This document shows positions 4,518-64,000 of a DNA stretch of 64,000 nt, in pieces. The first letter of the stretch is position 1. Every line of letters starts with the position of its first letter. The position numbers and the translations under genes are program-made. The stretch comes from Bactericera cockerelli (taxonomy: Eukaryota > Arthropoda > Insecta > Hemiptera > Triozidae). Below the pieces are notes generated by a model. That model was not told the DNA's origin and searched no databases. It saw only the letters and a list, made by a program, of their open reading frames with translations. The stretch covers positions 12,278,872 through 12,342,871 of the forward strand of contig CM044959.1 in the NCBI GenBank assembly GCA_024516035.1, written 5' to 3'.

Positions 4518-4814
4518 AGCGCGCGATTAGCTCAGTGGTTAAGCACTCGCTTGCCATGCGGAAGGTCCCGGGTTCGAACCCCCGCGCCGACAAAAATTTG
4601 TATTCTTAATTTGGTTACATTTGTTTGTAAGGGATACCTTCCGGTGCGCTCGTGTTGACCCAGCACCTAATTGGGAAGTATTGTGTCACTTCTCGCCCAT
4701 CAGAGGGGAGGCATACTACGGGATGGGCAGGCTACAACACAGACCACAAGCGTCTACAGTAGCTCCTGTTTCATGGCTACGAAATAAAAACGGCTGTGAA
4801 AACACTCATCTTTA

Positions 4815-4889: not shown

Positions 4890-5025
4890 TGATTCAAGGG
4901 CTTGGTTCTGGGGGTCCTTGTCAATTATTAGCCTCCTTGTAAAGACAGTGGTAGAAGTGCTGAGTCATTCCTCCACTGTCTGGCTACCATCGTTCACGAT
5001 GACGCCACCCTATGATGATGATTGA
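4890..5025 (-). repeat. Dispersed repeat D1
   Basis: The block with TCATCGTGAACGATGGTAGC and ACAGTGG, read on the minus strand. Other copies are at 28530-28650, 38263-38405 and 43020-43165. It ends near a (CAT)n tract. Family unknown, possibly a SINE body. Confidence 0.65.
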
Positions 5026-14098: not shown

Positions 14099-16297
14099 TT
14101 AAAAGAAATAAGGTGTGTAAATAATTGTAGATGAAAGAGTGTGTATGTATTGCATATGATCATTTAAGATGCATAAATTCATGGTAGCAAAATAGCAATA
14201 ATCACATTTGAAAATAAAAGTGTCCCTATGCAGTTTGTAGATGTGATGAGCTAAATTTGAACTAAACTTAGAAGTATATGCCTTGCAAATATGACAGTTG
14301 AATTTTCTGTGGTTAATATTATTGGATATGGGTCTATAGTCAGTTTCCAAATCCAATTCTTGCATATAAGTCAATGCTGACTGATGGTTGTGTGAGTGTA
14401 GAAGATGGGCATTTTTATTCATATTAGATATATGACATATTTCACATTTACACATGGCAAAACTATCCCAATACCAAGCAGTAAGGGGTATTTTGGGTGT
14501 CTTGTTTAGTTCTAGACACAGATCTTCATGATCCTTCATTATATCCACACAATCTGATTTCATACCACAGCGGGCACAAATAAATTCATGGACTAATTTA
14601 ATATCACTTGTCTCATTTTTCACATTTTCATCAATACATTCAGATTTTTTTGGAAGATCATCTTTCTTCTTGAGCAGAAATTTTTTATTGGAGAAAGTTT
14701 TGGCTGTTTTTTCTAGGTTTTTTAAGCCCTTCTTCAATTCAGTAATGTGAGTTCTCAAGGTTTTTGTTCGATTTTTTCTGTTTCCAAATATTTCTTTCGT
14801 TTTTTTTTTCAGGGAATCCTCATTATTTTTCAGGACTTTGCTCTTAATTATATTATTTGATTTTCCAGTTTTGTATCTTCCTTTGCTTTTAAACTCCTTA
14901 TAGGAACCATTTTTGAGTGTCTCATTATTACTGAACTTTTCCGATTTCTGGCTAATATAATATTTCTTTTTTAACAAATTCTTACCATTGCTGTATTTGT
15001 TTTCACAAGTACTGATATGTTGTGTTGATGCATCTGCCTCTACAGCATATAATCCATCAATGTATCCATTGTTTTCATTATCTTCACTAAAACTTGAATA
15101 TTCAGGCATCTCTATTTTATTGATAGAAATTTGTTCATACTCGTGAAAAATAATTTCAGGAATGAGTAAGTTACATTCAATATTGGTTTCTTTTTTCACA
15201 TTTATTGTGTTTTGGGATAAAAAGCTAGCGGAAACATATTCTGTGGTCTCTATTTTAACATTTGATTTGGTATTAAGTGCATTTAATGTTGAAATACCAC
15301 AATTGTGTTTATTGTTAATTTTTCCTTTTATGGGACTGGCACTCAAAGTACCTACACAATAATGATCAAAGCCACCATAATTTAAATATATATCAGCATG
15401 ATATTTATTCCTTACATCACACCTTTCGAAAATTTTCTCCATGCATAAACTGAACATTATTTCTAAACTCCATTTCTGGGATCTTTTTGATTTCACAAGG
15501 TGTGATTTTGATTTGAAATGATTTCCAAGAACATTGATAATAGTACAATTATAAGAACAATCTGGGCACATGTAGATTCGCTCCTCTTGATTTGTGATAA
15601 GTGTGAGGATGACAAAGAAATGTTGTACTGGAGCTTCAAAATTAATTACTTTTTCAACTGGAGATTGAAATGTTGTAAATTGACAGTATGAGATTATTGA
15701 TTTACCTTCTGTTGGGAAAGACCTCATTATATCATTCACATTCACAGAATTTCTTTCAGAGACATTTTCTCTGTGAACTATTGTATTAAAATGATCCAGG
15801 AGATTGATATAGGCTGAAACTTTAAGCCCACAGTTCGTGCAGATAAAATCTTGGTCATTAGTTTGAACTTTTTTAATACTGTAATAAGAATGTTGTAAAA
15901 CATCCTCTAGCTTGTGAAACAAATGTTTTACAGGTCTACCTTTTTTCTTTTTTATTGAATCTTTTACAGGACTATCTCTTTCTATGTTTATTGCATTTTT
16001 TGAAGGTTTGCCTCTTTTTCTTTTTATTGAACTTTCTACAGGTTTATCTTTTTCTTCTATTTCTATTGCACTTTTTACAGGTTTATCTCTTTTGATTGTA
16101 TTTTTTACAGGCTTATCTCTTCCTTTTTTATCTGCATTTTTCTCCATACAATTTGTAATGATTGATTGCTGAATTGATTTCCAAGATTCTGGAATTTCAT
16201 TTGGGTCCAATTTTGACCTATTTCTAAAACTGTACCTAGTTTCTTTATAAGCTAACTTCTGGGATTGAGGTTTTGAGTCAATGTTAGAACAATCCAT
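14099..16297 (-). CDS. C2H2 zinc-finger protein, intronless, 732 codons
   Basis: Single open frame from ATG at 16297 to the stop at 14099-14101. Two N-terminal C2H2 fingers are near residues 153-175 (C-x2-C...H-x5-H) and 244-266. A second cluster lies in the last 165 residues, with C-x2-C pairs at about 574-577, 617-620, 668-671 and 698-701, the last two being well-formed fingers. Residues 58-126 hold about six copies of an 11-13-residue lysine-rich unit built on (K/R)xKPVK-xxI. The middle is Lys/Asn/Ser rich and low in complexity. It is likely a nuclear DNA- or RNA-binding protein; I do not recognise an orthologue. The absence of introns in so long a frame, surrounded by SINEs, could mean a retrogene or a single large exon of a bigger gene. 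No alternative start is better supported. Confidence 0.85.
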   Translation of the reverse strand: MDCSNIDSKPQSQKLAYKETRYSFRNRSKLDPNEIPESWKSIQQSIITNCMEKNADKKGRDKPVKNTIKRDKPVKSAIEIEEKDKPVESSIKRKRGKPSKNAINIERDSPVKDSIKKKKGRPVKHLFHKLEDVLQHSYYSIKKVQTNDQDFICTNCGLKVSAYINLLDHFNTIVHRENVSERNSVNVNDIMRSFPTEGKSIISYCQFTTFQSPVEKVINFEAPVQHFFVILTLITNQEERIYMCPDCSYNCTIINVLGNHFKSKSHLVKSKRSQKWSLEIMFSLCMEKIFERCDVRNKYHADIYLNYGGFDHYCVGTLSASPIKGKINNKHNCGISTLNALNTKSNVKIETTEYVSASFLSQNTINVKKETNIECNLLIPEIIFHEYEQISINKIEMPEYSSFSEDNENNGYIDGLYAVEADASTQHISTCENKYSNGKNLLKKKYYISQKSEKFSNNETLKNGSYKEFKSKGRYKTGKSNNIIKSKVLKNNEDSLKKKTKEIFGNRKNRTKTLRTHITELKKGLKNLEKTAKTFSNKKFLLKKKDDLPKKSECIDENVKNETSDIKLVHEFICARCGMKSDCVDIMKDHEDLCLELNKTPKIPLTAWYWDSFAMCKCEICHISNMNKNAHLLHSHNHQSALTYMQELDLETDYRPISNNINHRKFNCHICKAYTSKFSSNLAHHIYKLHRDTFIFKCDYCYFATMNLCILNDHMQYIHTLSSTIIYTPYFF

Positions 16298-16349
16298 CAG
16301 CTCTATGGTAACTTCAAATTTGGCACATGAGTTATTCTGTAATATGAAA

Positions 16350-16692
16350 GAGAAGTATGTATTACTATTATCTGACCTGGTTGCAGCGTTTTTAGTGAAA
16401 CCCTTACAATTAACACTGCGTCCTAATTAGATTTATTATTCTAATTTATTCTATTTTGTTTTAACGTCCTGATTGAGATAGATAGTCAGGATGAAACCCC
16501 CATCCTTCATTTGCTGAGAATTGTACCAGCTACCCACATTAACCTCACCCAGCCTGGGTAGGATTGGACATGCCAGCCTCAAGTGTTTGGAGGGAACAGA
16601 ATTTTCTTTGAAAAATCTGCCTAATCGGGTATCAAACTTGGGATCTCTGTACTATGAGCAGTAGTATCAACTGTCTCACCACGGAGACTGGA
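16350..16692 (-). repeat. SINE-1 copy
   Basis: Full-length copy 5' of the zinc-finger gene. The tail (TGACCTGGTTGCAGCG...) is at 16370 and the head at about 16630-16690. It is more diverged than the copy at 33-360; the B-box reads AAGTTTGATACCC. Confidence 0.75.
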
Positions 16693-23700: not shown

Positions 23701-26700
23701 GGGCCGGAATGCCAGCATCACGAAGTCTTCAGCTCGCTGCACGTTGCTAAACTTCGGTGATCCTACGAAAACCGATGCATTTAACGCGCCATCGACTCTG
23801 GCTAAGTTTAACTTTGATTTAATTCCTCTACCTATGTCCCCAGACATGACGAAAGACTGACCGCCAAGCTAAGCAAGAGTTCCGTGCCTCCCGCATTCAG
23901 TTCAAGCATTAGCAACCTTACCTACTCCCCGACTCAGCAATTCGGAGTGTCCCTGCAGCATATTAAGGAGAGCAATGGGGGTGATGTTGTGGCCCCCATT
24001 GTGAGGCAATGTGTCGAATATCTGAGCCAACCCGATGGTAAGTTGAAAAAAACTAACCACTATTCTTATTATGCTAAAGTCTGCCAGTTATTATTATTAT
24101 CTGACCTTGTTGCAGGGTTTTCATTGAAACCCTTACAATTAACACTGCGACCTAATTAGATCTATTGTGACCAGTTGATTCTATTTGGTTTCCTCATTTA
24201 CATAGATAGTCTGGACGGGGGTTTTACCCTCCCTTCGCTGGGAATCGTATCAGCTACCCACATTAAGCTTACCCAGCCTGGGTAGGTCCGGAAATGCCAG
24301 CCTCACGTGTTTAAAGGGAACAGAATTTTTGTCGAAAAAGTCTGCTCCAACCGGGAATCGAACTCGGGATCTCTGGACTATGGGCAGTAGTCATAACCAT
24401 TATGCCACAGAGGCTGGCTCTTCAATTTGGAGTGTTCCTGCAGCATATTAAGGAGAGGAATGGGGTTAATGTTGTGGCCCCCATTGTGAGGCAATTTGTC
24501 GAATATCTGAGCCAACCCGATGGTGAGTTGAAAAAGAAACCAATCTATTCTTATTAATGCGAAAGTCTGTCACCTATTACTCAATTCAGTTTCTCCGTAC
24601 TGGTACGTTCTAGAAAACTAGAAATTTGGTAGGTGCCTTTTATGCTCAAGAGGGTAATTTTGTACCTAGCCTTGTGAAATACAGGGTGCGGCGCGGTTAT
24701 GTCCCATTTTGAATCGCCCAGTGTGAAGCCGCACTTCTAATTAGACAAGTTTGAACAAAGTTAGAAGATGCACAAACTACTAATTTTTTCGATTCAATTT
24801 AGCTCAGTTGTCAAAATGATTTTATCAAAGCAACAGAAAGCTTATTGCGTGGAGAGTTATTTTGAGATTTGTTTAAGAGGTGACCTTCCTTGGCCAGCGC
24901 GATCCCCGGATTTAGCTCCCTGTGATTTTTTCTTGTGGGGTTACCTCAAATCGAAAGTTTACAATGATCTTCCAAGAACACTTGAAGAGTTAAAACACAA
25001 CATTCGCCGTGAAATAGGCGGTATACCTGTCGCAATGTTGGAAAAAGTAGAGCGAAACTTTAGAAATCGCCTTCAGCAGTGTGTCGACAATGACGGTCGT
25101 CATTTGAATGGAGTACTCTTCAAAACTAGATAAAATCAAACCTTACATATTTGTAAATGATAATTCAACAACAAGCATCAGGTAAGACTGACAGCCTTTT
25201 TTTAATCGAATATTCAAAAGGGGACATAACCGCGCCGCACCCTGATTACAGGCTTGCAATGTATAAACTGAGGGCTGGCGCATTCTATTTCCGGGTTCAA
25301 AACTCAGCTGGGACATGACAAGTTATCCTCCAATTTGGGATTTTTAATAATACGTCTTTGCTTTACTTCTGAAATAATGGAACTTAAGGGTTGGGTGGAA
25401 GAGATTGCCACAGGCAATAACCCCGTCCTTTAGGTAGGACATTAACTTCATTCTCTTTTTTTTGTTCTTGTATCTCTGCCTAATCTTTTTGTTTTTCTTT
25501 ACAATTTCATTGTATTTTATTGTATATATTTATTGTTCTACCTAATAAAGCTTACTATAATAATAATAATAATATCGCCTTATTAATACTGCCCGATTAG
25601 GACTATTAAGTCCCATTATTCCAGCAGTAAGCTCAAGACGTATTATTATGTGGTAAAAATTACAAATGAGAGGATAACATATCATGTCCCAGCTGGGTTT
25701 CGAACCCACGACCTCTGGAATCTTTGGATTCACAGAGTGCCGCCTTTACCACTGAGCTACCGGGACAGATAATAATGGGACAGATAATATTATAATCATA
25801 ATAATATAATGTTCCTTATCGGGCGGTATAAATAAAATGATATTATTATTACATACTGTCATCATCATCATCAAACACAACTATTATTATTCTATTGTTG
25901 GATAAAAATCTCCTCTATTTGTTTCCACACACTTCTTTTATTACTTTTATTATTATTATTATACAACTCTTTATTAGATACAAAAGGACATTATGTACAT
26001 ACAAATAGGTAATAATTTTAACAGTGAAAAAATGAAAAAAAAAAAAAAACAATATATACAATAAAAATGAAAAAGAATAGAAAATATTTGAAAACATATG
26101 TCCTAACTAAAGGGCGGGGTTATTGCCTATGGCAATCTCTTCCACCCAACCAACACCTGTCGTCATCATCATCATCATCAAACACAACTATTATTATTCA
26201 ATTGTTGGATAAAATTAAGGGTTGGGTGAAAGAGATTGCCATAGGCAATAACCCCGCCCTTTAGTTAGGACATATATGTATATATTTTATTTATTTTTTT
26301 CTTGTTTATATTATTAATACTGTCAATTTTATATTTAATTTTTACCATTGTTTGTCTGTATACATATATGTTCTGCTAATAAAGAGTTTCTAAAAAAAAA
26401 AAAAAAAATTATCCTCTATTTGTTTCCACACACTTCTTTTATTACTTTGTACGGATGCCTCTTTTTCCCTCAGCTCTGGAGACGGAAGGTCTCTTCCGGA
26501 GGTCCGCCAACGTGACTCTGGTGCGCCAGTGCCAGACGGCTTGCAACGCGGGCCAGCCCATCCTCTTCCACAACGACATCCATCTGGCCGCCGTGCTGCT
26601 CAAGACTTTCCTGCGGGAGCTGGACGAGCCGCTGCTCACGTACGACCTGTACGACGGTGAGTCATCTTTCTAAGGTTATTAATTTCGTGTCCGTAAGATA

Positions 26701-28333
26701 GGGTTGGGTGGAAGAGATTGCTATAGGCATTAACACCACCCTTTAAATTGGACAAAATAATGTGTATAAATATATTTGTAATGATTGTAGCGTAATGTTT
26801 GTGACTACTGCCCGTAGTCCAGAGATCCCGAGTTCGATCCCCGGTCGGAGCAGATTTTTCACAGAAAATTCTGTTCCCTCCGTACATGTAAGACTGGCAT
26901 TTCCGGCCCTACCCAGGCTGGGCGAGGTTAATGTGCGAGACTTTCCTGCGGGAGCTGGACGAGCCTTTACTCACGTACGACCTGTACGACGGTGAGTCAT
27001 AATAATAATAATAACACTCTTTAGTGGAAGGTAACCACCAGGCGAGGGCAATGCTCAAAACATTTTCTACCACTTGACCCGTAGAGTCTTATTAGACTCT
27101 AACCAAAGACTCATGTTTCCAGTAGCATTTTAATATATACAGGTTGTGATGACTTTTGTCGAACGATAGATATACGTAGGCACTCGGAAGTATCCTATAT
27201 ATATCTACCCCCCTCCCCCTACTGTAGCCATGCTGGTCACAACAACAATATTAATAATAACAACACTTTTTAGTGGAAAGTAACTACCAGGCGAGGGTAA
27301 TGCTCAAAGCATTTTCTACCACCTAGCCCTCAGGGTCCTATTATCATGTGGTCACAAACTCAAATTAATGAGTAAAATTCATGCACTGGGTGGGATTCAA
27401 ACCAACGGATCCCTGCGCTATCTGAATTACCTGTTTATACTGATGAAAACAGAGAGGTTTGTTGATGACATGGATATTCAGAACTATTACCTGCTGATGA
27501 GAGCAAATAAGCTCGAAACAGCTGTTCAGGTATGTTCTGATATTCATGTACAATGTACATCTAGTACAACTTCGCACTTTTCTGTTTTTACTGATTATAC
27601 TGATACTGATAATGAAATAATCTTATTCCCCACACATAGACCTAAAGAAGTTTATTAATGATATTACAATACAATACTTACCCGACAAGTAATTTAGCAA
27701 AAAAACAGGGCCCAACCAACAGTTGGCACCGTGGACACACTGAGTGGAGGCTACGTGCTCTCCTACATGAAGCGCACGACGCAGCCACACAGTGGGTCCA
27801 CGCAAACAAATTAGATTAAGCTGAACATTGTCCAGCAGTCGACTCGGTGATCTATTTGAAAATTTTGATCACAACTATTTATTACGTAAAAAAAAAAAGA
27901 ATGAAACACCGTGTCGACTGCTGGATAAATTTTTTTAGATAAGGACCAGTCTGTGAATGTATGTAATACATTGTATACATGTAAAGTTATAATTGAAACA
28001 AAGAATTGAATGTTAAAAAAAATGTTATTCCCCAGAGATCCTCCGTTCCCGACGCTGAACCGTGACGAGCGCTCCCGCTACGTGAAGATCCTCATCCTGG
28101 AGAAGCTGCCCTCCGACAACTACACGCTGCTCAAGCATCTGGTGACCTTCCTCAGTCAGGTGGAGGACCGGTCCGACCTGAACAAGATGACCTGGAACAA
28201 CCTGGCCGTCGTGTTCGCCCCTAACCTGATCTGGGCGCCCGTCAACAGTCAATTGTCCCCTGAGCGCATCTCGCCCATCAACTCTTTCGTGAATTTCATG
28301 TTCAACAATTGGGCACTCGATATTCATTATTAG
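20678..28333 (+). CDS. ARHGAP1: RhoGAP with Sec14/BCH domain (ARHGAP1 / RhoGAP68F family)
   Basis: Complete gene. Coding exons: 20678-20735, 21182-21289, 21948-22251, 23083-23400, 23844-24037, 26474-26656, 28038-28333. All introns are GT-AG and the phases join to 486 residues plus stop, close to the length I recall for fly RhoGAP68F. An acidic N-terminus (residues 1-117) is followed by a CRAL-TRIO/BCH lipid-binding fold (~118-265) and a RhoGAP domain (~298-480). In the GAP domain, EGLFRRSA places the arginine finger at R336, and [10 protein letters not shown] gives the conserved Asn (~443). It should speed GTP hydrolysis on Cdc42/Rho at membranes. The last exon uses the second of two overlapping AGs (28036-28037); this keeps frame and gives the same spacing between DLY and the LPxxNY motif as human ARHGAP1, so no missing microexon is needed. 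Introns are packed with SINEs, LINE ends and duplicated exon pieces. Confidence 0.93.
21182..21289 (+). CDS. ARHGAP1: RhoGAP gene, coding exon 2
   Basis: Acceptor TTTTTCAG, donor GTGAGT. Encodes an acidic, unstructured stretch with [19 protein letters not shown]. Confidence 0.82.
21405..21625 (+). repeat. SINE-1 copy in RhoGAP intron 2
   Basis: Head remnant CTGCCCTTGGTCCAGAGATC, core GGAGCTGGTATGATTCCCAG, 3' block GTTAAAAACCAAAT. Old and diverged. Confidence 0.68.
21948..22251 (+). CDS. ARHGAP1: RhoGAP gene, coding exon 3
   Basis: Long T tract and CTAG acceptor, donor GTAAGG. The acidic linker is followed by the start of the Sec14-like domain, with [18 protein letters not shown]. Confidence 0.9.
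22380..22650 (+). repeat. Dispersed repeat D2 in RhoGAP intron 3
   Basis: Contains CACACATAGAAATATGTGGT and ends CAGCTGTAGCCAAGCTAGCT followed by ACAACAACA. A minus-strand copy with the same 3' end is at about 43630-43745 and a tail piece is near 27220. SINE-like with an (AAC)n tail. Confidence 0.6.
22672..22713 (+). pseudogene. Degenerate copy of exon 4 start with its acceptor
   Basis: TTATTATTCCAGTTATCTAC then GTGCTAGGCAA matches the true exon 4 edge at 23071-23106 (TTATTATTTCAGCTATCTCA...GTGCTGGACAA), with a 4-base deletion and point changes. Between the two copies lie the pogo-like element and the SINE-3. Confidence 0.65.
22728..22854. mobile_element. Short pogo/Tigger-like element
   Basis: About 127 bp with inverted ends ACAGTCAAACCCAGCTATAA / TCCAGGTTTGACTGT, flanked by TA-rich sequence. 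The interior has CTCTTATAAAAGCTCCGTTA-type text related to the minisatellite at 1540-1870. Confidence 0.6.
22868..23078 (+). repeat. SINE-3 copy abutting exon 4
   Basis: Complete SINE-3 (GTCCCAGTAGCTCAGTGG head, GTGTAAATAAGGCGATATTA 3' end). Its ATT tail runs directly into the exon 4 polypyrimidine tract and acceptor, so the insertion may supply part of the splice signal. Confidence 0.85.
23083..23400 (+). CDS. ARHGAP1: RhoGAP gene, coding exon 4
   Basis: Acceptor immediately after the SINE-3 tail, donor GTGAGT. Core of the CRAL-TRIO/BCH domain: [47 protein letters not shown] short degenerate copy of its 5' end lies at 22672-22713. Confidence 0.93.
23590..23722 (-). repeat. SINE-6 copy in RhoGAP intron 4
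   Basis: Tail block TTTAACGTCGCTTTCAACTG followed by the AATCTCACAAACCTCTGCTA and core ATTAACCTCACCCAGCC blocks. Confidence 0.7.
23844..24037 (+). CDS. ARHGAP1: RhoGAP gene, coding exon 5
   Basis: Acceptor TGTCCCCAG, donor GTAAGT. Linker plus the start of the RhoGAP domain ([11 protein letters not shown]..., [14 protein letters not shown]). A second, mutated copy of its 3' part is at 24422-24540. Confidence 0.92.
24085..24420 (-). repeat. SINE-1 copy in RhoGAP intron 5
   Basis: Nearly full-length, tail at 24085-24160, head at about 24350-24418. It lies exactly between exon 5 with its flank and the second copy of that region. Confidence 0.82.
24422..24580 (+). pseudogene. Duplicate of exon 5 3' half plus donor and intron
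   Basis: Repeats exon 5 from CAATTCGGAGTGT through the donor and on into the intron (TATTCTTATTA...AAAGTCTGTCA). Codon changes make some residues differ (e.g. [11 protein letters not shown] for [10 protein letters not shown]) and the donor is GTGAGT instead of GTAAGT. No own acceptor beyond a SINE-derived CCACAG is seen, so probably not used. Confidence 0.8.
24682..25244 (+). mobile_element. Internally deleted mariner-like transposon
   Basis: 563-bp element with inverted ends CAGGGTGCGGCGCGGTTATG / CATAACCGCGCCGCACCCTG in RhoGAP intron 5. It carries a shrunken transposase frame. TA precedes the left end; the right flank is ATTA. Confidence 0.88.
24816..25133 (+). pseudogene. Transposase with in-frame internal deletion
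   Basis: ATG at 24816 opens a 105-codon frame. The transposase N-terminus ([18 protein letters not shown]) runs directly into the C-terminal third ([20 protein letters not shown], then [14 protein letters not shown]). The helix-turn-helix region and the first two catalytic aspartates are missing; the D of PDLAPCD remains. It cannot cut DNA, but the clean frame is noteworthy. Confidence 0.85.
25290..25385 (+). repeat. SINE-3 fragment
   Basis: Starts in the B-box region (GGGTTCAAAACTCAGC), then GACATGACAAGTTATCCTCC and the TAATACGTCTT block. It is truncated and followed directly by a LINE tail. Confidence 0.65.
25386..25570 (+). repeat. LINE 3' end (tail family)
   Basis: AAGGGTTGGGTGGAAGAGAT, GCAATAACCCCGTCCTTTAG, then a T-rich UTR and CTAATAAAGCTTACTATAAT ending in (AAT)n. 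The same tail follows the coding remnant at 45756-46046, which identifies it as a non-LTR retrotransposon 3' UTR. Confidence 0.7.
25571..25770 (-). repeat. SINE-3 copy, minus strand
   Basis: Complete copy; the head at 25680-25768 has GGTTTCGAACCCACGACC read in reverse. Inserted in RhoGAP intron 5. Confidence 0.85.
25945..26152 (-). repeat. LINE 3' end, minus strand
   Basis: TACAACTCTTTATTAGATAC through CAATCTCTTCCACCCAACC. Flanked by copies of the same intron sequence (25858-25945 versus 26160-26213 plus 26411-26447). Confidence 0.75.
26214..26408 (+). repeat. LINE 3' end, plus strand
   Basis: TTAAGGGTTGGGTGAAAGAG through CTAATAAAGAGTTTCTAAAA and poly-A. Inserted inside the second copy of the duplicated intron segment, therefore younger than the minus-strand insertion. 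Confidence 0.78.
26474..26656 (+). CDS. ARHGAP1: RhoGAP gene, coding exon 6 (arginine finger)
   Basis: Acceptor CCCTCAG, donor GTGAGT. Encodes [19 protein letters not shown] with the catalytic arginine, through [15 protein letters not shown]. The last ~53 bases plus the donor are duplicated at 26939-27000. Confidence 0.93.
26700..26937 (+). repeat. LINE tail fragment plus truncated SINE-1
   Basis: 26700-26760 is LINE tail text (GGGTTGGGTGGAAGAGATTG). 26785-26937 is a SINE-1 head and core (CGTAATGTTTGTGACTACTG; GTTCGATCCCCGGTC) that stops inside GGCGAGGTTAATGTG, where the exon 6 duplicate begins. Confidence 0.75.
26939..27000 (+). pseudogene. Duplicate of exon 6 3' end with donor site
   Basis: GACTTTCCTGCGGGAGCTGG through GACGGTGAGTCAT repeats 26604-26665. 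The main differences are synonymous (CCGCTGCTC versus CCTTTACTC, both Pro-Leu-Leu). No acceptor precedes it. Confidence 0.85.
27001..27430 (-). repeat. Two SINE-2 copies in RhoGAP intron 6
   Basis: 27001-27115 is a 3' half only. 27240-27430 is nearly complete, with B-box GGTTTGAATCCCACCCAGTG in reverse. The head of the second stops at GGTAATTCAG, where the ribozyme element starts. Confidence 0.75.
27431..27605 (+). mobile_element. Single hammerhead-ribozyme element (retrozyme-like)
   Basis: One ~151-bp unit plus the start of a second (CTGTTTATACTGATG at 27431; TCTGTTTTTACTGATTATAC at 27581). It corresponds unit for unit to the tandem array at 37945-38263. No open frame of note. Related known elements are non-autonomous retrozymes and the terminal repeats of Penelope-like retroelements, both of which carry hammerheads. 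Confidence 0.75.
27472..27545 (+). ncRNA. Hammerhead ribozyme (type I)
   Basis: Core CTGATGA at 27494-27500, stem II GAGC-AAATAA-GCTC at 27501-27514, GAAA at 27515-27518, then ACAGCTGT at 27518-27525 (minimal palindromic stem III, 2 bp in a monomer, 4 bp in a dimer). The predicted cut follows U27526 (GUU). Stem I pairs ACCTG (27489-27493) with CAGGT (27527-27531) and CAGAAC (27479-27484) with GTTCTG (27534-27539), leaving the internal loops used for tertiary contacts in natural type I hammerheads. Every invariant core base is present. GUU in place of GUC should slow cleavage but is permitted. Confidence 0.88.
28038..28333 (+). CDS. ARHGAP1: RhoGAP gene, last coding exon
   Basis: Rest of the RhoGAP domain ([38 protein letters not shown]), ending DIHY and TAG. 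The terminal ~70 bp is repeated twice more directly downstream. Confidence 0.93.
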
Positions 28334-28529: not shown

Positions 28530-28650
28530 ATAGGGTGGCGTCATCGTGAACGATGGTAGCCAGACAGTGGAGGAATGACTCATCACTTCTACCACTGTCT
28601 TTACAAGGAGGCTAATAATTGACAAGGGCCCCAGAACCAAGCCAATATAG
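28530..28650 (+). repeat. Dispersed repeat D1
   Basis: TCATCGTGAACGATGGTAGC through ACAAGGAGGCTAATAATTGA. Preceded by CATCATCAT. It lies in the 3' flank of the RhoGAP gene. Confidence 0.7.
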
Positions 28651-35768: not shown

Positions 35769-38700
35769 CTGAAACAATTGACACATAGTTGAAGTTCAAC
35801 TAATAGGCAGCATTGATGGATGACACATTTAATAATAAAAATAAAAAAAAATGGAATAACCATGTGCAATTTTACTTCCGAGAAATTTCTAATATTAGAA
35901 ATCGGAAGTATTGTGTTCGTTTTTGTAAAAAAATATTTTTTTGCTCCGATTTCAATTTTTTTCATATTTCTGGACGTTTCATAACCTCCTGAGCAAATTT
36001 GGTTTTGTGTCCGTCTGTCGGTCTGTCTGTTAAAACGATTCCTTGTAACGCGCAAATCTCGGAAACTACTCGACCGATTTGATGAAATTTTGCACACATC
36101 TAGGAGACATTCTGTAGATGGTCCCATTTTAAATTCATCGAATTCGTACTAGCGGCTCTGGGAGAAAGAGACCATGCGCCTGACCACTAACTTTTTACTT
36201 AAATGCATATATCTCGTGAACGGTACACCCGATTTTGATGAAATTTTGTATGTATATGCATATTATTGTTTTACACAGGCTTTTTATATTTTCTTTTTAA
36301 TTAATTATAATTTGACTCTGATATTTAAGAAAATCCGAAATTTTGGACAATAAAGTCAAAAAATAAGAACCACCACTTGCCAATACAGAATTTTTTGTAG
36401 AATAAAATGTAGAAAACGGTTTTCTACCATATAAAACAAATTTGAAGAAAATCAGTTTAGCCGTTTCGGAGATACAAGTAATTTAGTATAAAAACTCAAA
36501 ATTCGCACGTGGACACAATGTGAAACAATCACGAGGAAGTATTGTGTCCATAATTGGCAGTGTTTTTTTCTTTTCTTTTAAGATACACTTTCACGGCCTT
36601 CTTTATTTCATAGCTATGAATCAGGAGCTACAGTAGACGCTTGTGGTATGTGTTTTAGCCTGCCCATTCCATAATATGCATCCCTTCTGAAGGGCAAGAA
36701 GTGACACAATACTTCCCATTTAGGTGCTGGGTCAACACGAGCGCACCGGAAGGTATCCCTTACAAACAACTTTTACCAAAATTTGAATACATTTTTTTTG
36801 CCTGCACGGGGGTTGGAACCCGGAACCTTCCGCATGGCAAGCAAGTGCTTAACAATTTTACTTTTTTAATTAGAAATAATAATACTTCTTTAATGAGTCA
36901 TATTAGGTATGTAAAATATAATTAGGTTTTAGAAAAACAACAAAAATATTCTTAACTCAAGTTTATTGGTATTATAATATTTGAAACATTAGAGGCTTTA
37001 TGTCCTGTGAGAATAGGAAGTATCAAAGCCATCAAATAACAATATTTTTATTCTTATTGTTTGTGACAACCAGGACTTGAAAACTAAATCTCTAGACTTG
37101 GACTTTATGTTATTAATAATATTGCCTTTTTACACTGCCCAATTGGGATAAAAAGGTTCCATTATTCCAGCAGTAAGCCCAAGACATATTATTACGAGGT
37201 CAAAATCCCAAATGGAAAGATAATCATGCCCTGGCTTGGTTTTGGATCTGCAACTTCTGGATTACTAGACTGACTGAGTTACCAGGACAGACTTTATTAT
37301 CTATCAAGATATATTCTACTCACATATTGTCACCACGGATTATATGAAGTCCCAGTACAACCTGTTCCACCCCTGAGGTAGGACTGTAGACTCTCTCGTG
37401 ACTGTCATCCAGAATTACATTGATGGTCTGGTCAAAACCTTTCAGAGTACCCTGGAATAAATAAACGAAAAGTTAAGACTGATGTTAATCATGAGAAATA
37501 ATTGAGACATATGATGGATTTTAACACAGTCTGTTACCTAAGGAAATAATAAGACTATGGACTTGTCCCTCTGCAGGAAACTAACAAGAACAATCCCTTA
37601 AACAGCCTAGCTAGCTGGCCAATTCCTAAAGTGTTGAAACAGGTAAAGAAAGCTCAGTACTCAGATAAATTAAATAATACCAAAAAAAATTTATGGCCAT
37701 TAAGGTTCTAACTATAAAATTAAGAGGAGCACATGAAGGAAAATAATGGAAATTTTCTTCTTCTTTCACTTTGCCTTTTCCCAAACCTACTTTGGTTTGG
37801 CAGTCAAATTTACCCATGGTTGATCTTGTTTGGTTCTGGCAATCCTACTTATACATTTTGTGGATGCCCTTCTTTACACTGTTAAGGATGCTAATGATTT
37901 ATGTTATTGTATGTTGACCTGACCGGGCTGGTACTTTATTCCCTCATCATCAGTATCAGTTATATAAACAGAAAAGTGAGAAGTTGTACTAGATGTACAT
38001 GTATATCAGAACATACCTGGACAGCTGTTTCGAGCTTATTTGCTCTCATCAGCAGGTAATAGTTCTGAATATCCATGCCATCAACTAACCTCTCTATTTT
38101 TATCAGTATAAACAGAAAAGTGAGAAGTTGTACTAGATGTACATGAATATCAGAACATATCTGGACAGCTGTTTCGAGCTTATTTGCTCTCATCAGCAGG
38201 TAATAGTTCTGAATATCCATGCCATCAACTAACCTCTCTATTTTTATTAGTATAAACAGAAAAGCGTCATCGTGAACGATGGTAGCCAGACATTGGAGTA
38301 ATGACTCAGCACTTCTACCACTGTCTATACAAGGAGGCTAATAATTGACCAGGGCCCCCAGAACCGAGCCAATGCTGGTCTACTCCCTGTTTATAGTCCC
38401 CCACTGAGGGACTTTAAAACAGGGAGTAGACCCCCTGTTTAAAGTCCCTCAGTGAAATAAATTATTGACAAAGACAAAACAACAAATGATAGTGAGGTGA
38501 CTGGTGAGCCATTTTTCTTCTTCAATATTCATTAGTAAGGTAGGTTTTAAAATGTATTTCTTAAAACAAAAATGTATACTAACCACAAAGTTTCTTCCAT
38601 CTGCTGTAATAATTGAGACAACTCCTGAGTATTCAACTGTAGTTAAGAATAAACCAAACCAGAATGAAATTCAAACCAGCAAAAAGTTATATGTATTAAA

Positions 38701-39828
38701 GAATGGGTTATAAATATTTGTAATAGATACACTTCAGTACCCCTGTTCTTGCACCAATCCCATCAATTAAATAGGAAGTAAAAGGTTTTTTTTATTGCCC
38801 ATCAGACTACAGGATGGATGATCTACAACACAGACAAAAACTGGTCTATATACAAACATCTTAATAATAATAACTGGGTGGGATTCAAACCAACGGATCC
38901 CTATGCTACCTGGATTACCAGACTAGCATGTTAACCTCTTGACAACCATCTTAGTAGCATTTATGCATGACTTCCATCGACTCCTTAGATTTGAACAAAC
39001 CTATGTAGGTGCATCTAGTTCATGATGACAGCTAGATAAGTGTTCAAGGACTTTCTACTAATCACAGCACACCATACAACAAGAAAATAATAAGTAATAC
39101 AGGGCCTGCCATAGATTATGAAACATTTTGAAATGCCTATATTTTCAAAACTAAAGCTTCAAAATGAAATTTTCTTTAATGGAGTGTGAGAAAAGAGAAT
39201 GCCATTAATTATAATACTCACCATTTACGTTTTGGAAATTATATTATGAAGATGTTGACTTTAATGCAGAGTGCATGAACTCGGAGCTCAGAAGTTCTCT
39301 CAAGTTACACATCATGTTTACCAACATGTATTCAAGAATAGCATTTTTCACTTCTTTAACTTTTTGGTATTTAACCAAACCAAGAATACAAGAAAACAAT
39401 GATATCCCCAAAGACATTGCAGTAAACATGATGCACAGCTCAAGAGAAGTTTGAATTCATATATTTTGCATCAAGATTAATGTGATCTTCAAAACGTGAA
39501 TATTGGTGTATATAACTAAAAAGTTGAAAAACACCACTTTAATATAATAGAATATAGATAGATAGAAAACATGAATTGGTGAGAATTACAATAAATAGTT
39601 TTTTTTTTTTTTAGCATTCCATCAAAGAAAAATTCATTTTGAAATTTCAGTTGTGAAAATATAGGCATATTAAAATAGTTCATGATCAATTGCAGATGCT
39701 CAATATAGTTTGGTAACTTTTCACTTAATTAAATATTTTATATTGACAATTTAAAATACCCTCCATGATACTTTTAATGCACATCTATAAAGGATACGGT
39801 TAACATAGCTTTCCAGACCAGCTGCCAT
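35678..39828 (-). CDS. LSM8: U6 snRNA-associated Sm-like protein LSm8
   Basis: Complete gene on the minus strand. Coding exons: 39828-39798, 38624-38584, 37451-37324, 35768-35678. They join in frame to 96 residues, the same length as human LSm8. LSm8 makes the nuclear LSm2-8 ring that binds the 3' oligo-U of U6 snRNA and acts in splicing. The N-terminus is MAAGLESYVNR. Sm1 is VVSIITADGRNFVGTLKGFD, continuing QTINVILD; Sm2 is VVLGLHIIRGDN. The tail is LDEAVDSRLDLTSLRAEP followed by LSQIVH. The exon 2 acceptor is ACTCAG at 38625-38626; the earlier CTACAG would add residues not found in the family. Donors are GTATCC (unusual), GTTAGT and GTGAGT. Introns hold hammerhead repeats, SINEs and a 0.7-kb element. 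Confidence 0.94.
35870..36545. mobile_element. Non-coding transposon T1, copy in LSM8 intron 3
   Basis: About 670 bp. One end carries a hairpin, ACTTCCGAGAAATTTCTAAT / ATTAGAAATCGGAAGT, and the other end reads GAAGTATTGTGTCCATAATT. The interior includes TTGTAACGCGCAAATCTCGG and CGTGAACGGTACACCCGATT. A full inverse copy is at 49735-50430 and a fragment at 55270-55490. A terminal hairpin without inverted repeats recalls Helitrons, but TC/CTRR ends are not evident. Confidence 0.75.
36590..36852 (-). repeat. SINE-5 copy in LSM8 intron 3
   Basis: Minus-strand match to 4518-4815: AGCTACAGTAGACGCTTGTG, GGGTCAACACGAGCGCACCG, head with GGAACCCGGAACCTTCCGCA. Confidence 0.8.
37118..37295 (-). repeat. 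SINE-3 copy in LSM8 intron 3
   Basis: Diverged minus-strand copy (TTCCATTATTCCAGCAGTAA, CCAAGACATATTATTACGAG; head TGACTGAGTTACCAGGACAG). Confidence 0.72.
37324..37451 (-). CDS. LSM8: LSM8 coding exon 3
   Basis: Acceptor TTATTCCAG, donor GTGAGT. Codes GTLKGFDQTINVILDD through LGLHIIRGDN: the end of Sm1 and most of Sm2. Confidence 0.93.
38005..38072 (-). ncRNA. Hammerhead ribozyme, array unit a
   Basis: Minus strand: core CTGATGA (38052-38046), stem II GAGC-AAATAA-GCTC, GAAA, palindrome ACAGCTGT, then C; the predicted cut (GUC) is between 38020 and 38019. Stem I pairs ACCTG with CAGGT and CAGAAC (complement of 38062-38067) with GTTCTG (complement of 38007-38012). All core bases are intact. 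Confidence 0.9.
38149..38216 (-). ncRNA. Hammerhead ribozyme, array unit b
   Basis: Same motif 144 bp away: core at 38196-38190, cut site between 38164 and 38163. One stem I base differs (CAGAT for CAGGT), giving a C-A mismatch near the cut, so activity may be reduced. With unit a, self-cleavage would release a 144-nt monomer. Confidence 0.88.
38263..38462 (+). repeat. Dispersed repeat D1 with hairpin end
   Basis: TCATCGTGAACGATGGTAGC through GCCAATGCTGGTCTACTCCC. At 38376-38432, GGTCTACTCCCTGTTTATAG faces TTTAAAACAGGGAGTAGACC, a ~25-bp stem, followed by another CCCTGTTTAAAGTCCCTCAG copy. Confidence 0.72.
38584..38624 (-). CDS. LSM8: LSM8 coding exon 2 (41 bp)
   Basis: Very small exon giving the R and VVSIITADGRNFV of the Sm1 motif. 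Acceptor ACTCAG, donor GTTAGT. Tandem hammerheads lie in the following intron. Confidence 0.88.
38870..38945 (-). repeat. SINE-2 head fragment
   Basis: ACTGGGTGGGATTCAAACCA and TACCTGGATTACCAGACTAG; only the tRNA-like head is present. Confidence 0.6.
39798..39828 (-). CDS. LSM8: LSM8 coding exon 1
   Basis: ATG at 39828; codes MAAGLESYVN plus one base. The donor reads GTATCC, weaker than the GTAAGT norm, but it is the only one that fits both frame and family alignment. Confidence 0.85.
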
Positions 39829-43019: not shown

Positions 43020-43165
43020 ATAGAGTGGTGTCATGGTGAACAATGGTAGCCAGACAGTGGAGGAATGACTCAGCAGTTCTACCACTGTCTTTACAAGGAG
43101 GCTAATAATTGACAAGGGCTCTCAAAACCAAGCCAATGCTGGTCTACTCTCTGTTTATATTCCCC
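43020..43165 (+). repeat. Dispersed repeat D1
   Basis: TGGTGAACAATGGTAGCCAG through ACTCTCTGTTTATATTCCCC; diverged copy. Confidence 0.68.
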
Positions 43166-43517
43166 CAGCCAGAAGTAAATATCAAGGGGAAAAAAATGAT
43201 TTTATGACTATTCAAATTTACTAGGTATGTTATTGTTATCTTTGTATTGAAAAAATATGTATTAATTTCTTGTTAAGTAACATATTATTTAAAATAATCT
43301 TAATATTCTTGTACATTATATAAAAAAATTCCATACTAAATCTTTTATGATTATTTGAAATTGTTTTTGTTAATTTCTTTTAACCCTATGGGTAAAACAT
43401 TACATGATTAGCTCCATTAAATTGAATACTCTTTTCATATAACGCTGTGGATTCTGGTTCAATTGTTAGTGTATTTATGTTGTTATATCTAAATCTTGTT
43501 TTATATGTATATCCAGC

Positions 43518-47144: not shown

Positions 47145-48419
47145 ATCAATAAGTACCCGTGTTTAGGGACATGTTACATCATTGGTGAAACTTGTTGATA
47201 CTTGTTGATGGAACGACATCTCAAATGACCACATCCAAAGTTTGAAACTGATTACTCTCTTAGTTTTCATTTATCGGTCACTTGAAGTTGTTGTGTTGCG
47301 TATAGTTGAGTGATATGGAAAAAGAACAGTACCGAGCAGTTATTCGATTCCTTTTTTTGGACGGGAAAAAATGTGATGATATAAAATTAAAGTTAGATGC
47401 TGTGTACGGGAGCTCTTCACCTTCTATGATCACTGTTCGCTTTTGGTTTAATGAATTTAAACGAGGGCGCACAAGCATTTTTGACGAGGAGCGCCCAGGA
47501 CGCCCAGAAGACGTGTGTACCGAGGAAGTCGTGGAAAAAGTGCATGATATGATTCTCAAAGATCGCCGAACAAAAGTGCGTGAAGTAGCTGAGAGTGTGG
47601 GCATTTCATATGGAACTGTTTTTAAAATCCTTCATGATAAGCTGGGCATGAGAAAACTATCGGCGCGATGGGTGCCGCGATTGCTCACAATTGACAACAA
47701 ACGAATTCGGCTGAATTGTTCAAAGGCTAGTTTAGAACTCTTCAATCGCAATCCAGATGATTTTTTGCGTCGAGTTGTGACCGTTGATGAAACCTGGATA
47801 CATCACTATACCCCAGAAACCAAACAGCAGTCAAAAGAATGGACTTTCGTTGGAGAATCTGCCCCAAAGAAGGCGAAATCGGTCCAATCGGCCGGAAAAG
47901 TCATGGCTACCGTTTTTTGGGATGCAAAGGGAATTATTCTTATTGACTTCTTGGAAAAAGGAAAAACAATAACTGCTGCATATTATAGTGAGTTATTGAC
48001 ACGATTTGATGCAAAATTGAAGGAGACACGCCCCCATTTGGCGAGAAAGAAAGTCTTGTTTCACCATGACAATGCACCAGCTCACTCATCTGGAATTGTT
48101 GCTGCTAAAATCCATCAACTTGGATACGAATTATTGCCACACCCACCTTACTCACCTGACCTAGCCCCCTGCGATTATTTTTTGTTTCCTAACTTGAAAG
48201 TTTGGCTCGGTGGAAAGAGGTTCAGCTCAAATGATGACGTCATAAGCCAGACAAAGGGCTATTTTGAGGAGTTCGAAGGGAGCTACTTTTTGGAAGGGCT
48301 AAAAAAGTGGCAGGATCGCTGGAAGAAGTGTGTAGCCTTGAAAGGAGACTACGTCGAAAAATAGAACCCAAAAATGTAAGTATCTCGCACTCTTTTTTCA
48401 AACACGGGTACTTCTTGAT
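47145..48419 (+). mobile_element. mariner transposon
   Basis: Inverted ends ATCAATAAGTACCCGTGTTT (47145) and the inverse of ATCAAGAAGTACCCGTGTTT (ends 48419) surround the transposase. A TA duplication is not clear at the right end, so the outermost bases are uncertain by 1-3 bp. It lies inside the THAP/outer inverted-repeat complex and is probably the youngest insertion there. Confidence 0.82.
47314..48364 (+). CDS. mariner transposase, apparently intact
   Basis: Unbroken frame from MEKEQYRAVIRFLF to DYVEK. ATG at 47314 gives about 349 residues, typical of mariner (about 345-350). The N-terminal half has two helix-turn-helix segments (FWFNEFKRGRTSIFDEERPG RPE linker; VREVAESVGISYGTVFKIL). 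The catalytic triad is present: D in VTVDETWIHHYTPETK, D in LFHHDNAPAHSS, and D in [13 protein letters not shown] 34 residues after the second, i.e. DD34[12 protein letters not shown] and the WVPRLLT-like motif (WVPRLLTIDNKR) are conserved. It cuts and pastes its own element at TA sites. The promoter is unknown. The host flanks are themselves repeats. Confidence 0.93.
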
Positions 48420-57894: not shown

Positions 57895-60800
57895 TCCACC
57901 TACAACGTTTCTACCTACAAGATTTTTTTAGGGTTTTTTTGTTTCACATCCTACTTACAATATTTAGGGTTTTTAGTTTCAAAATTATATCGGCCATGCC
58001 CGAGGCAAACTATTCGTTGTACACACATAGGGTCTTTCTTATTGTTATAATCATATACCTAGGTATATCATATGCTAATTTCAACAAAGTTGTAGGTGTC
58101 ATTTTCGTGATATAGCCGTTTGAATATAAAAAGTTCAAAAAAAATATTCTAATTATACATAAAGGCACTGCCCGAGACAAACTCTACGTTGTACACACAT
58201 AGGGTCTTTTTGAATGTACTAGACACATACCAAGCCATCTAATATGGTAATTTCAACAAAGTTGTAGGTGTCATTTTTGAGATATTGCTTGTTGAATTCC
58301 TACCTACAATAATTATTGTTTTTAGATTCGAAATGTTATCGGCACTGCCCGAGGCAAAATGTCCAGTGTACACATATAGGGTCTTTTTTATTGTACTGAA
58401 CACATACTGAGACACATAATGTGGCAATTTGAGCAGATTTATAGGTGTCATTTTTGAGATATAGCCGGTTGAATATAAAAAAAATCAGAAAAATTACTCT
58501 AATTAAACTTAAAGTCACTGCCCGAGACAAACTCTTCGTTGTACACACATAGGGTCTTTTTTAATGTTATAAACATATACCTAGGTATATTAAATGCTAA
58601 TTTCAAAAAGTTGTAGGTGTCATTTTCGAGATATAGCCGTTTGAATATAAAAAGTTCAAAAAAAATATTCCAATTATACATAAAGGCACTGCCCGAGACA
58701 AACTCTACGTTGTACACACATAGGGTCTTTTTGAATGTGCTAGACACATACCAAGCCATCTAATATGGTAATTTCAACAAAGTTGTAGGTGTCATTTTTG
58801 AGATATTGCTTGTTGAATTCCTACCTACAATAATTAGTGTTTATAGATTCGAAATGTTATCGGCACTGCCCGAGGCAAAATGTCCAGTGTACACATATAG
58901 GGTCTTTTTAATTGTACTTAACACATACTGAGACACATAATGTGGCAATTTAAGAAGATTTGTAGGTGTCATTTTTGAGATATAGCCGGTTGAATAAAAA
59001 AAAGTTCAGAAAAATTACTCTAATTATATTTAAAGGCACTGCCCGAGACAAACTCTTCGTTGTACACACAGAGGGTCTTTTTTAATGTTATAATCATATA
59101 CCTAGGTATATTATATGCTAATTTCAACAAAGTTGTAGGTGTCATTTTCGAGATATAGCCGTTTGAACATAAAAATTCAAAAAATTTATTCTAATTCTAC
59201 ATAAAGGCACTGCCCGAGACAAACTCTTCGTTGTACACACATAGGGTCTTTTTGAATGTACTAGACACATAATAAGCCATCTAATATGGTAATTTAAACA
59301 AAGTTGTAGGTGTCATTTTTGAGATATTGCTTGTTGAATTCCTACCTACAATAATTAGTGTTTATAGATTCGAAATGTTATCGGCACTGCCCGAGGCAAA
59401 ATGTCCAGTGTACACATAGGGTCTTTTTAATTGTACTTAACACATACTGAGACACATAATGTGGCAATTTAAGCAGATTTGTAGGTGTCATTTTTGAGAT
59501 ATAGCCGGTTGAATAAAAAAAAGTTCAGAAAAATTACTCTAATTATATTTAAAGGCACTGCCCGAGACAAACTCTTCGTTGTACACACAGAGGGTCTTTT
59601 TTAATGTTATAATCATATCCTAGGTATATTATATGACAATTTTAACAAATTTGTAGGTGTCATTTTCGAGATATAGCCGGTTGAATAGAAAAAGTTTAGA
59701 AAAAATACTCTAATTATACCTAAAGGCACTGCCCAAGACAAACTCTTTGTTGTACACACATAGGGTCTTTTATAATGTTATAAGCATATACCTAGGTATA
59801 TCAAATGCTAATTTCAACAAAGTTGTAGGTGTCATTTTCGTGATATAGCCGTTTGAATATAAAAAGTTCAAAAAAAAATATTCTAATTATACATAAAGGC
59901 ACTGCCCGAGACAAACTCTTCGTTGTACACACATAGGGTCTTTTTGAATGTACTAGACACATACCAAGCCATCTAATATGGTAAGTTCAACAAAGTTGTA
60001 GGTGTCATTTTTGAGATATTACTTGTTGAATTCCTACCTACAATATTTAGTGTTTTTAGATTCGAAATGTTATCGGCACTGCCCAAGGCAAAATGTCCAG
60101 TGTACACATATAGGGTCTTTTTTATTGTACTTAACACATACTGAGACACATAATGTGGCAATTTAAGCAGATTTGTAGGTGTCATTTTTGAGATATAGCC
60201 GGTTGAATATAAAAAAAATCAGAAAAATTACTCTAATTAAACTTAAAGACACTGCCCGAGACAAACTCTTCGTTGTACACACAGAGGGTCTTTTTTAATG
60301 TTATAATCATATACCTAGGTATATTATATGCTAATTTCAACAAAGTTGTAGGTGTCATTTTCGAGATATAGCCGTTTGAACATAAAAATTCAAAAAATTT
60401 ATTCTAATTCTACATAAAGGCACTGCCCGAGACAAACTCTTCGTTGTACACACATAGGGTCTTTTGAATGTACTAGACACATAATAAGCCATCTAATATG
60501 GTAATTTAACAAAGTTGTAGGTGTCATTTTTGAGATATTGCTTGTTGAATTCCTACCTACAATAATTAGTGTTTATAGATTCGAAATGTTATCGGCACTG
60601 CCAAGGCAAAATGTCCAGTGTACACATATAGGGTCTTTTTTATTGTACTTAACACATACTGAGAACATAATGTGGCAATTTAAGCAGATTTGTAGGTGTC
60701 ATTTTCGAGATATGGCCGTTTGAACATAAAAAGTTCAAAAAAATTATTCTAATATAATCATATACCTAGGTATTTATATGCTAATTTCAACAAAGTTGTA

Positions 60801-63800: not shown

Positions 63801-64000
63801 GTGTTTATAGATTCGAAATGTTATCGGCACTGCCCGAGGCAAAATGTCCAGTGTACACATATAGGGTCTTTTTAATTGTACTTAACACATACTGAGACAC
63901 ATAATGTGGCAATTTAAGCAGATTTGTAGGTGTCATTTTTGAGATATAGCCGGTTGAATAAAAAAAAGTTCAGAAAAATTACTCTAATTATATTTAAAGG
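57895..64000. repeat. Satellite array with three-monomer higher-order repeat
   Basis: Monomers all begin near GCACTGCCCGAG and share GTTGTAGGTGTCATTTTTGA and GAGATATAGCCG. Start positions 58165, 58342, 58515, 58686, 58863, 59036, 59207 give steps of 177, 173, 171, 177, 173, 171, so one higher-order unit is ~521 bp (types B, C, A). Type A holds a 16-base palindrome ATATACCTAGGTATAT. The array starts as a degenerate monomer at about 57895 and runs off the window. Irregular parts: several type A monomers in a row at 60780-61290, a truncated monomer near 60720-60790, and a long exact repeat (58165 onward equals 62606 onward, shift 4441 bp). The short minus-strand reading frames in it are not genes. 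Confidence 0.95.

Follow-up and report, generated by a model that had tools for sequence, protein, structure and literature searches.

A dispersed 144-bp element of the psyllid Bactericera cockerelli that carries a type I hammerhead, and a possible role of ribozyme cutting in setting its insertion 5′ ends

Intron 2 of LSM8 in Bactericera cockerelli contains a short tandem array with two hammerhead motifs, which raises the question of whether a self-cleaving RNA helps to produce the copies of the element that carries it. The window that we analysed is the whole 64,000-nt stretch of contig CM044959.1 (assembly GCA_024516035.1, positions 12,278,872 to 12,342,871, forward strand). The first-pass annotation had described two minus-strand hammerheads spaced exactly 144 bp apart. 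A structural descriptor and Tandem Repeats Finder recovered both the cores and the tandem, which consists of 2.1 copies of a 144-bp unit with 98% matches; pairwise comparison of units A and B revealed differences at 3/144 positions. Both units have CUGAUGA, a 4-bp stem II (GAGC-AAAUAA-GCUC), GAAA and GUC. The cut sites proposed earlier (38020/38019 and 38164/38163) coincide with C17 at 38020 and 38164, as predicted from the sequence. Stem I pairing had been claimed for both units. The stem table upheld it for unit B, in which the 6-bp inner stem I is intact and there is no U at position 17, but not for unit A, in which the inner stem is broken after 3 bp, at the fourth pair, by a G-to-A change. 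The placement in LSM8 intron 2 was also correct: the bracketing exons and the splice model put the array on the same strand as the gene, in sense orientation.

Table 1. Coordinates of the hammerhead-bearing insertions and their host genes in the 64-kb window
Feature	Position	Strand	Basis
Putative retroposon insertion in LSM8 intron 2: 14-nt leading piece (38264-38251) followed by 144-bp units A and B	37963..38264	-	Tandem Repeats Finder, direct repeats, nhmmer
Hammerhead A, type I; C3 38196, C17 38164, predicted cut 38164/38163	38143..38213	-	RF02275 31.8 bits, structural descriptor
Hammerhead B, type I; C3 38052, C17 38020, predicted cut 38020/38019	37999..38069	-	RF02275 34.1 bits, structural descriptor
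3′ tail of the LSM8-intron insertion (TA-ACTGATACTGATGATGA), outside the unit	37944..37962	-	ACTGATACTGAT recurrence, genomic tails
LSM8 exon 1 (donor GTATCCTTT)	39798..39828	-	tblastn, splice model
LSM8 exon 2	38584..38624	-	tblastn, splice model
LSM8 intron 2, 1,132 nt, carrying the array in sense orientation	38583-37452	-	splice model
LSM8 exon 3	37324..37451	-	tblastn, splice model
LSM8 exon 4, to last codon	35681..35768	-	tblastn, splice model
Second, independent insertion: one 151-bp unit (with a 7-nt insertion) and a short 5′ part, 159 nt	27431..27589	+	blastn, alignment, nhmmer
Hammerhead C, type I; C3 27494, position 17 is U at 27526	27477..27547	+	RF02275 31.8 bits, descriptor
3′ tail of the second insertion (ACTGATTATACTGATACTGATAATGA)	27590..27615	+	sequence comparison
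Open frame with RhoGAP-domain exon, 5′ of the second insertion	26383..26670	+	PF00620, 3.2e-13
Open frame with later RhoGAP-domain exon	28010..28330	+	PF00620, 8.1e-16

Conceptual splicing of LSM8 gave a protein of 96 aa, identical to LSm8 of Diaphorina citri at 94/96 residues and to that of Cyamophila willieti at 92/96. A mollusc or Helitron origin, considered at an earlier stage, was dropped once the LSm8 search returned psyllids. The second insertion sits between RhoGAP-domain exons, i.e., in a RhoGAP intron, and is likewise in sense orientation; sense orientation in 2/2 window insertions is by itself uninformative. The insertions measure 301 nt (LSM8 array) and 159 nt, their 5′ flanks are other dispersed repeats, and the only two occurrences of ACTGATACTGAT in the window lie immediately 3′ of them. 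The unit copy in the RhoGAP intron, the third of the window, with its tail (27431-27615, plus strand), is absent from the first-pass annotation. A zinc-finger-like frame elsewhere in the window (14102-16426) had no homologue at E 0.001.

Chance origin of the window hammerheads is excluded, because a structural scan found 3 of them in the 64 kb as compared with a mean of 0.035 (maximum 1) in 200 dinucleotide shuffles. All three copies have the type I layout: CUGAUGA, stem II, GAAA, stem III, UH and stem I, with the open end at stem I. Rfam at gathering scores returned no hammerhead in the whole window, a tRNA being the sole match. At relaxed thresholds, RF02275 (Hammerhead_HH9) matched unit B with 34.1 bits (E 9.3e-7) and unit A with 31.8 bits (E 5e-6), below its gathering score of 52. 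Genome-wide, RF00163 gave at least 54 matches, and 51 of the 54 listed lie over its 34-bit cut-off, a lower bound since 74 of 85,613 candidates were scored; they include two loci of the 144-bp-unit family (L112 and L122). The unit has a GC content of 0.35-0.36, and no Pfam family scored above cut-off in open frames over the units. We rejected the unit as coding sequence: it has one endless sense frame, yet so do 187/5,000 shuffles; the frame in copy C is broken by the 7-nt insertion, and Pfam matches fell under their cut-offs.

Stem III is an 8-nt palindrome, ACAGCUGU. The prior proposal of a type I ribozyme whose small palindromic stem III makes it act best as a dimer agrees with the predicted folding. 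The tandem RNA folded as a double hammerhead with a shared 8-bp stem III has a calculated energy of −90.7 kcal/mol, versus −80.0 for two single hammerheads and −93.5 for the unconstrained fold, so that the double form would be favoured by 10.7 kcal/mol over two single ones in folding without tertiary contacts. In the three window copies, the single-hammerhead fold lies 6.0-9.3 kcal/mol above the free fold.

A genome-wide search for such units, suggested by the first-pass annotation, was performed on 565,017,811 bases in 1,032 contigs, and revealed the 144-bp element at thousands of places. The exact 34-nt core occurs at 1,620 places. When up to 3 mismatches are allowed, a non-core 30-mer (unit positions 114-143) occurs at 7,896 places and a 30-mer within the ribozyme (positions 58-87) at 4,765; the reversed control of each gave 0. 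The exact pattern had no match in viral contigs or prokaryote genomes. To sample copies regardless of the ribozyme, we picked 80 core-blind loci through the far-end 30-mer, all on one contig (C1). Whole or partial unit matches numbered one at 60/80 loci, two at 15/80, three at 2/80, and none at 3/80.

The 5′ ends of the copies vary, with insertion lengths from 36 to 430 nt. Nearly all 3′ junctions fall at one point, CTGTTTATACTGAT, beyond which come ACTGAT, TATACTGAT and words of that kind in runs of differing length; across the sampled loci the unit ends at TTTATACTGAT and an ACTGAT-rich tail of varying length follows. Such a tail lies directly 3′ of the unit in 67/77 core-blind insertions, and an altered tail was recognized by eye in at least 6 of the remaining 10 (L039, L042, L066, L072, L091 and L093). 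Flanks are mostly unrelated: among 102 contiguous insertions, both flanks are common to the two members in 10 pairs and a single flank in 4. Target-site duplications of at least 5 nt were seen in 7/74 insertions (duplicate loci retained) versus 3.84 expected from re-pairing of flanks, and no clear duplication was found in the genomic set or at the window insertions. A fixed, tailed 3′ end with unrelated flanks characterizes target-primed reverse transcription, as in LINEs and SINEs. On these grounds we read the sampled copies as products of target-primed retroposition and not as a satellite. They resemble a non-autonomous, SINE-like retroposon whose 144-bp unit includes a type I hammerhead. 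No tRNA match was found in the element by Rfam.

After removal of 6 duplicates, the core was intact in 37/46 units. The first-pass annotation had named neutral decay of the core, without compensatory change, as a contrary expectation. The outcome was mixed: variation in the core (11/598 cells) was about half that elsewhere (172/4554), but 1,189/20,000 random position sets (~6%) matched or undercut it.

We then compared insertion lengths with the predicted cut. Unit position 1 was set at CTGATTAAAA, and the ribozyme cut falls between positions 87 and 88. Lengths run as far as the unit's last TTTAT; on this scale a cut-derived template predicts 56, 200, 344 nt, etc. The pool (n=102) consisted of 74 contiguous core-blind insertions, 26 core-selected ones (L001, L002, L004, L005, L006, L008 and L129-L148) and the 2 window insertions; every genome locus in the pool is on contig C1. 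The core-selected loci are blind to insertions shorter than ~90 nt and the core-blind sample to copies shorter than ~36 nt. Left out were L003 and L007 (overlaps), the three core-blind loci without matches, and three with non-contiguous units. Removal of 14 insertions with a common flank (13 from genome-locus pairs, and the window array) reduced the pool to 88. The window array has only a dispersed repeat in common with its partner, L135.

Among these 88, 16 insertions measured ≤57 nt, 12 measured 58-130, 26 measured 131-160, 14 measured 161-180, 12 measured 181-200, 4 measured 201-220, none measured 221-240 and 4 exceeded 240. Lengths of 131-200 nt account for 52/88, and 84/88 are ≤211 nt (~1.5 units). 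The best single length edge is at 211 (208-213 within two log units) versus the predicted 200, i.e., 8-13 nt beyond it, and a random edge would land ≤11 nt from the prediction 14% of the time. In three of the four insertions of 201-220 nt (L047, L064, L073 and L095), the excess is a small number of matching bases on the 5′ side of the cut; in L095, whose 5′ end maps to unit position 91, it consists of extra internal bases. Only two insertions (L093 and L136) have their 5′ end exactly at position 88, the first base past the cut. The 5′ ends are most frequent at unit positions 96-119, about 10-30 nt downstream of the cut and not at it. On the second turn of the unit, with 30 nt considered on each side of the cut, the two sides held 19 versus 4 ends (p 0.0013). 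On the first turn, where the view covers 21 nt on one side versus 30 nt on the opposite side, they held 16 versus 5 (p 0.0012), a weak test because any 5′-truncating process favours short copies.

The fixed, tailed 3′ ends and the fall-off in length near the cut together indicate linear templates. The points at which copies start suggest that the RNA's own cut may help to produce the jumping copies. Reading from sequence, we take as the simplest account, and as somewhat more likely than not (probability roughly 0.55), that linear ribozyme-cut RNAs, either at present or in a founder, supplied the 5′ ends of the insertions. Intronic copies would be transcribed along with the host gene, and two units in one transcript would pair through the palindrome into a double hammerhead that is cut 3′ of C17. 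Starting at the ACTGAT tail, a reverse transcriptase from another element would copy the resulting linear RNA up to the ribozyme cut at its 5′ end, giving insertions of up to ~56 + 144k nt. Alternatively, the founder alone may have been ribozyme-cut, with descendants keeping its 5′ edge without further cutting. The more specific proposal, that the hammerhead itself sets the 5′ end of the mobile RNA through self-cutting of read-through transcripts of at least two units and copying of the freed RNA in a ladder of ~56 + 144k nt, is tentative, and we would place it a little short of an even chance.

The release of 144-nt monomers that could circularise, inferred in the first-pass annotation, is not supported as the main route: most sampled copies are single, with a fixed and tailed 3′ end, and insertion lengths drop near the cut. 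We consider it improbable that the element moves as a classical metazoan non-LTR retrozyme, in which 144-nt monomers are ligated by a host ligase and the circles serve as template for reverse transcription. The type I hammerhead, the low GC content and the tandem copies in the window fit such a route, and circles are known for coral, mussel and axolotl retrozymes (PMC7229834). The predicted circle fold is also unusually stable (−40.7 versus a mean of −23.1 kcal/mol; 0/500 shuffles as low), and reverse transcription starts internal to the cut monomer, as expected of a circle or of internal initiation. However, a circular template would offer no end at the cut site, whereas insertion lengths drop there; the sampled copies are mostly not multimers; and the common tail lies outside the unit, though slippage on ACTGAT could create one. 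Linear ribozyme-cut templates have another competitor that dispenses with the ribozyme: a SINE master of ~200 nt may start near the cut by accident, or reverse transcription may stall at stem I (positions 88-112). The peak of 5′ ends at 96-119, which lies within the 3′ arm of stem I or next to it and not at 88, is what stalling or a chance master would give; source copies of ~1.4 units would make copies >200 nt rare without any cutting, and the conservation of the core is weakly above background. Pure stalling predicts similar pass shares at both hammerheads, yet 49/65 core-blind insertions extend past the first and 8/21 pooled ones reaching 180 nt past the second, a purely descriptive comparison of differently chosen loci. 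A chance master would make the agreement between length edge and cut accidental. We regard an irrelevant ribozyme as unlikely.

Two further explanations concern the array itself. If satellite DNA or unequal crossing-over had built the tandem, the hammerhead would be a fossil; tandem 144-bp units are consistent with this, and hammerhead satellites are known in Dolichopoda (PMC2837043) and newts (PMC7229834). The copies, however, are dispersed, mostly single and fixed and tailed at the 3′ end, with mostly unrelated flanks, and 37/46 cores are intact. The end structure largely refutes a satellite origin, to which we give very little credence. Conserved intronic hammerheads exist in amniotes, and an intronic ribozyme could have been recruited in the same way to regulate LSM8; the array lies in sense in intron 2 and its top Rfam match is HH9. 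Against this, the element recurs at thousands of further sites, dispersed repeats of other kinds lie 5′ of both window insertions, and the HH9 match, at 34.1 bits, falls short of the gathering score of 52. We consider recruitment for LSM8 regulation very improbable.

Animal retrozymes carry type I hammerheads in repeats of 150-450 bp (Cervera and de la Pena 2020, PMC7229834). The remark in the first-pass annotation that the unit is small for a retrozyme holds, 144 bp being just under the range given in that source. As described there, metazoan non-LTR retrozymes resemble the psyllid element in that a short noncoding repeat of low GC content, sometimes tandem and present in many copies, carries the type I hammerhead; the psyllid element differs in its mostly single units, its fixed and tailed 3′ end, and the length fall-off near the cut. 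Target-site duplications of retrozymes, where present, are >4 bp. The retrozyme literature, in the parts drawn on here, models movement via circles. In the psyllid, the starts and stops of reverse transcription are preserved in thousands of copies, and the link between ribozyme cutting and mobility can be tested from genome sequence.

The Sm-alpha element of Schistosoma mansoni is a SINE-like repeat. It resembles the psyllid element in that such a repeat contains a hammerhead. All SmPoMuc genes are reported to have an intronic hammerhead (PMC2576457). A tRNA is described for the schistosome repeats (PMC4918200, as far as that account is used here), whereas the psyllid element has no tRNA match. 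We found no report of a psyllid hammerhead element among the matches listed in the literature searched, which covered few subscription papers; the combination of a hammerhead with a SINE-like end structure was not found there for psyllids, and the schistosome repeats come nearest to it.

HDV-like ribozymes release L1Tc-type and R2 RNAs from co-transcripts (PMC4035085, PMC12192640). In R2 and trypanosomatid L1Tc/ingi, as reported in these sources, the RNA of the element is cut out of a co-transcript with the host by a self-cleaving ribozyme, as we propose for the psyllid element. Those ribozymes are HDV-like and belong to autonomous elements and their SINEs, whereas the psyllid element has a hammerhead, is tiny and non-autonomous, and probably needs two copies. 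If the proposal is true, it would be a hammerhead, non-autonomous counterpart of the R2/L1Tc ribozymes, in an insect and at thousands of loci.

A Penelope-like element resembles the psyllid element in bearing a hammerhead and in an internal initiation of reverse transcription that determines where insertions end; its own hammerhead is dispensable for insertion in vitro (PMC11167929). The psyllid element, unlike Penelope-like elements, has no coding capacity. That study is the only example we met of a map of insertion ends against reverse-transcription starts. The genome contains Penelope-like frames (25 GIY-YIG matches). When 20 of these 25 loci were scanned with ~1.5 kb on each side, the descriptor found no hammerhead besides one copy of the 144-bp unit (L010), and Penelope elements were set aside as the source of the unit.

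Helix III is stable in most invertebrate motifs (PMC7761336, in the part considered here); the psyllid stem III, unlike these, is weak and palindromic. Amphibian hammerhead motifs act best as dimers (PMC7229834). Newt satellite 2 and axolotl HHR_Amex1 share with the psyllid motif a weak helix III, closed by a palindromic tetraloop, and predicted dimer action; amphibian retrozymes are otherwise unlike it, being vertebrate elements with 330-350-bp units, and a tailed 3′ end is not described in the portions of that source cited here (PMC7229834). The psyllid element thus appears to be an invertebrate case of a weak palindromic stem III favouring dimer action.

The genome contains two further hammerhead families with a palindromic stem III, ACGAUCGU and ACUAGU. 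Of 20 loci taken around 20 of the 54 listed RF00163 matches, 13 had descriptor hammerheads, all palindromic and falling into the three families. The other 7 are decayed members by eye, with the palindrome kept in 5 and lost in L114 and L121. As to compensatory stem changes, none was seen within the 144-bp-unit family (family 1), but between the three families stems I-III differ with pairing preserved. In family 2, comparison of L111 with L110 revealed a paired change in stem I from GCC/GGC to GUC/GAC.

The Bactericera cockerelli genome (G000) contains further hammerhead families. An array of the second family occupies G000:C7:17218609-17234923, the first 9.9 kb of which is locus L109; its hammerheads are spaced ~705-720, 1,500 and 2,260 bp apart, and their stem III is ACGAUCGU. 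Relatives of this family were found as single copies at L110, L111, L115, L117 and L118. The third family, whose stem III is the 6-nt palindrome ACUAGU, was found at L116, L119, L120, L123 and L125. Loci L009-L028 of the same genome carry Penelope-like GIY-YIG frames, several of which are open across 837-838 aa; some lie a few kb apart, in direct or opposite orientation. These frames are candidate mobilisers.

The 144-nt unit of the LSM8 intron 2 array has a length divisible by 3 and one endless sense frame; such a frame was also obtained in 187 of 5,000 shuffles of the unit. The array adjoins a palindrome-rich dispersed repeat. The junction, at 38265, falls short of the point where the relatives of this repeat lose mutual resemblance, and a piece of the repeat is also present at L135, a locus with a family-1 (144-bp element) insertion. 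The donor and pre-acceptor sequences of LSM8 intron 1 resemble those of a U12-type intron.

Features of the window
Feature	Position	Strand	Remark
Two 144-nt units	37963-38250	-	
Palindrome-rich repeat	38265-38455		relatives at 43030-43167, 4899-5005, 28538-28646
LSM8 intron 1 donor	39797-39788	-	GTATCCTTT
Shortly upstream of LSM8 intron 1 acceptor	38649-38625	-	TTCTTAAC
RhoGAP exon 3′ end and donor site	26604-26665	+	repeated at 26939-27000 (+)
775-codon open frame	14102-16426	-	C2H2-like motifs by eye
Mariner-type transposase frame	47306-48361	+	uninterrupted
173-bp satellite	57949-64000		long array, extends to window end

The repeated RhoGAP segment lies 335 bp downstream of the original. 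The 775-codon frame was without homologue in a protein search at E 0.001, and no Pfam family exceeded its cut-off. The mariner-type frame has 99% identity to an unnamed database protein.
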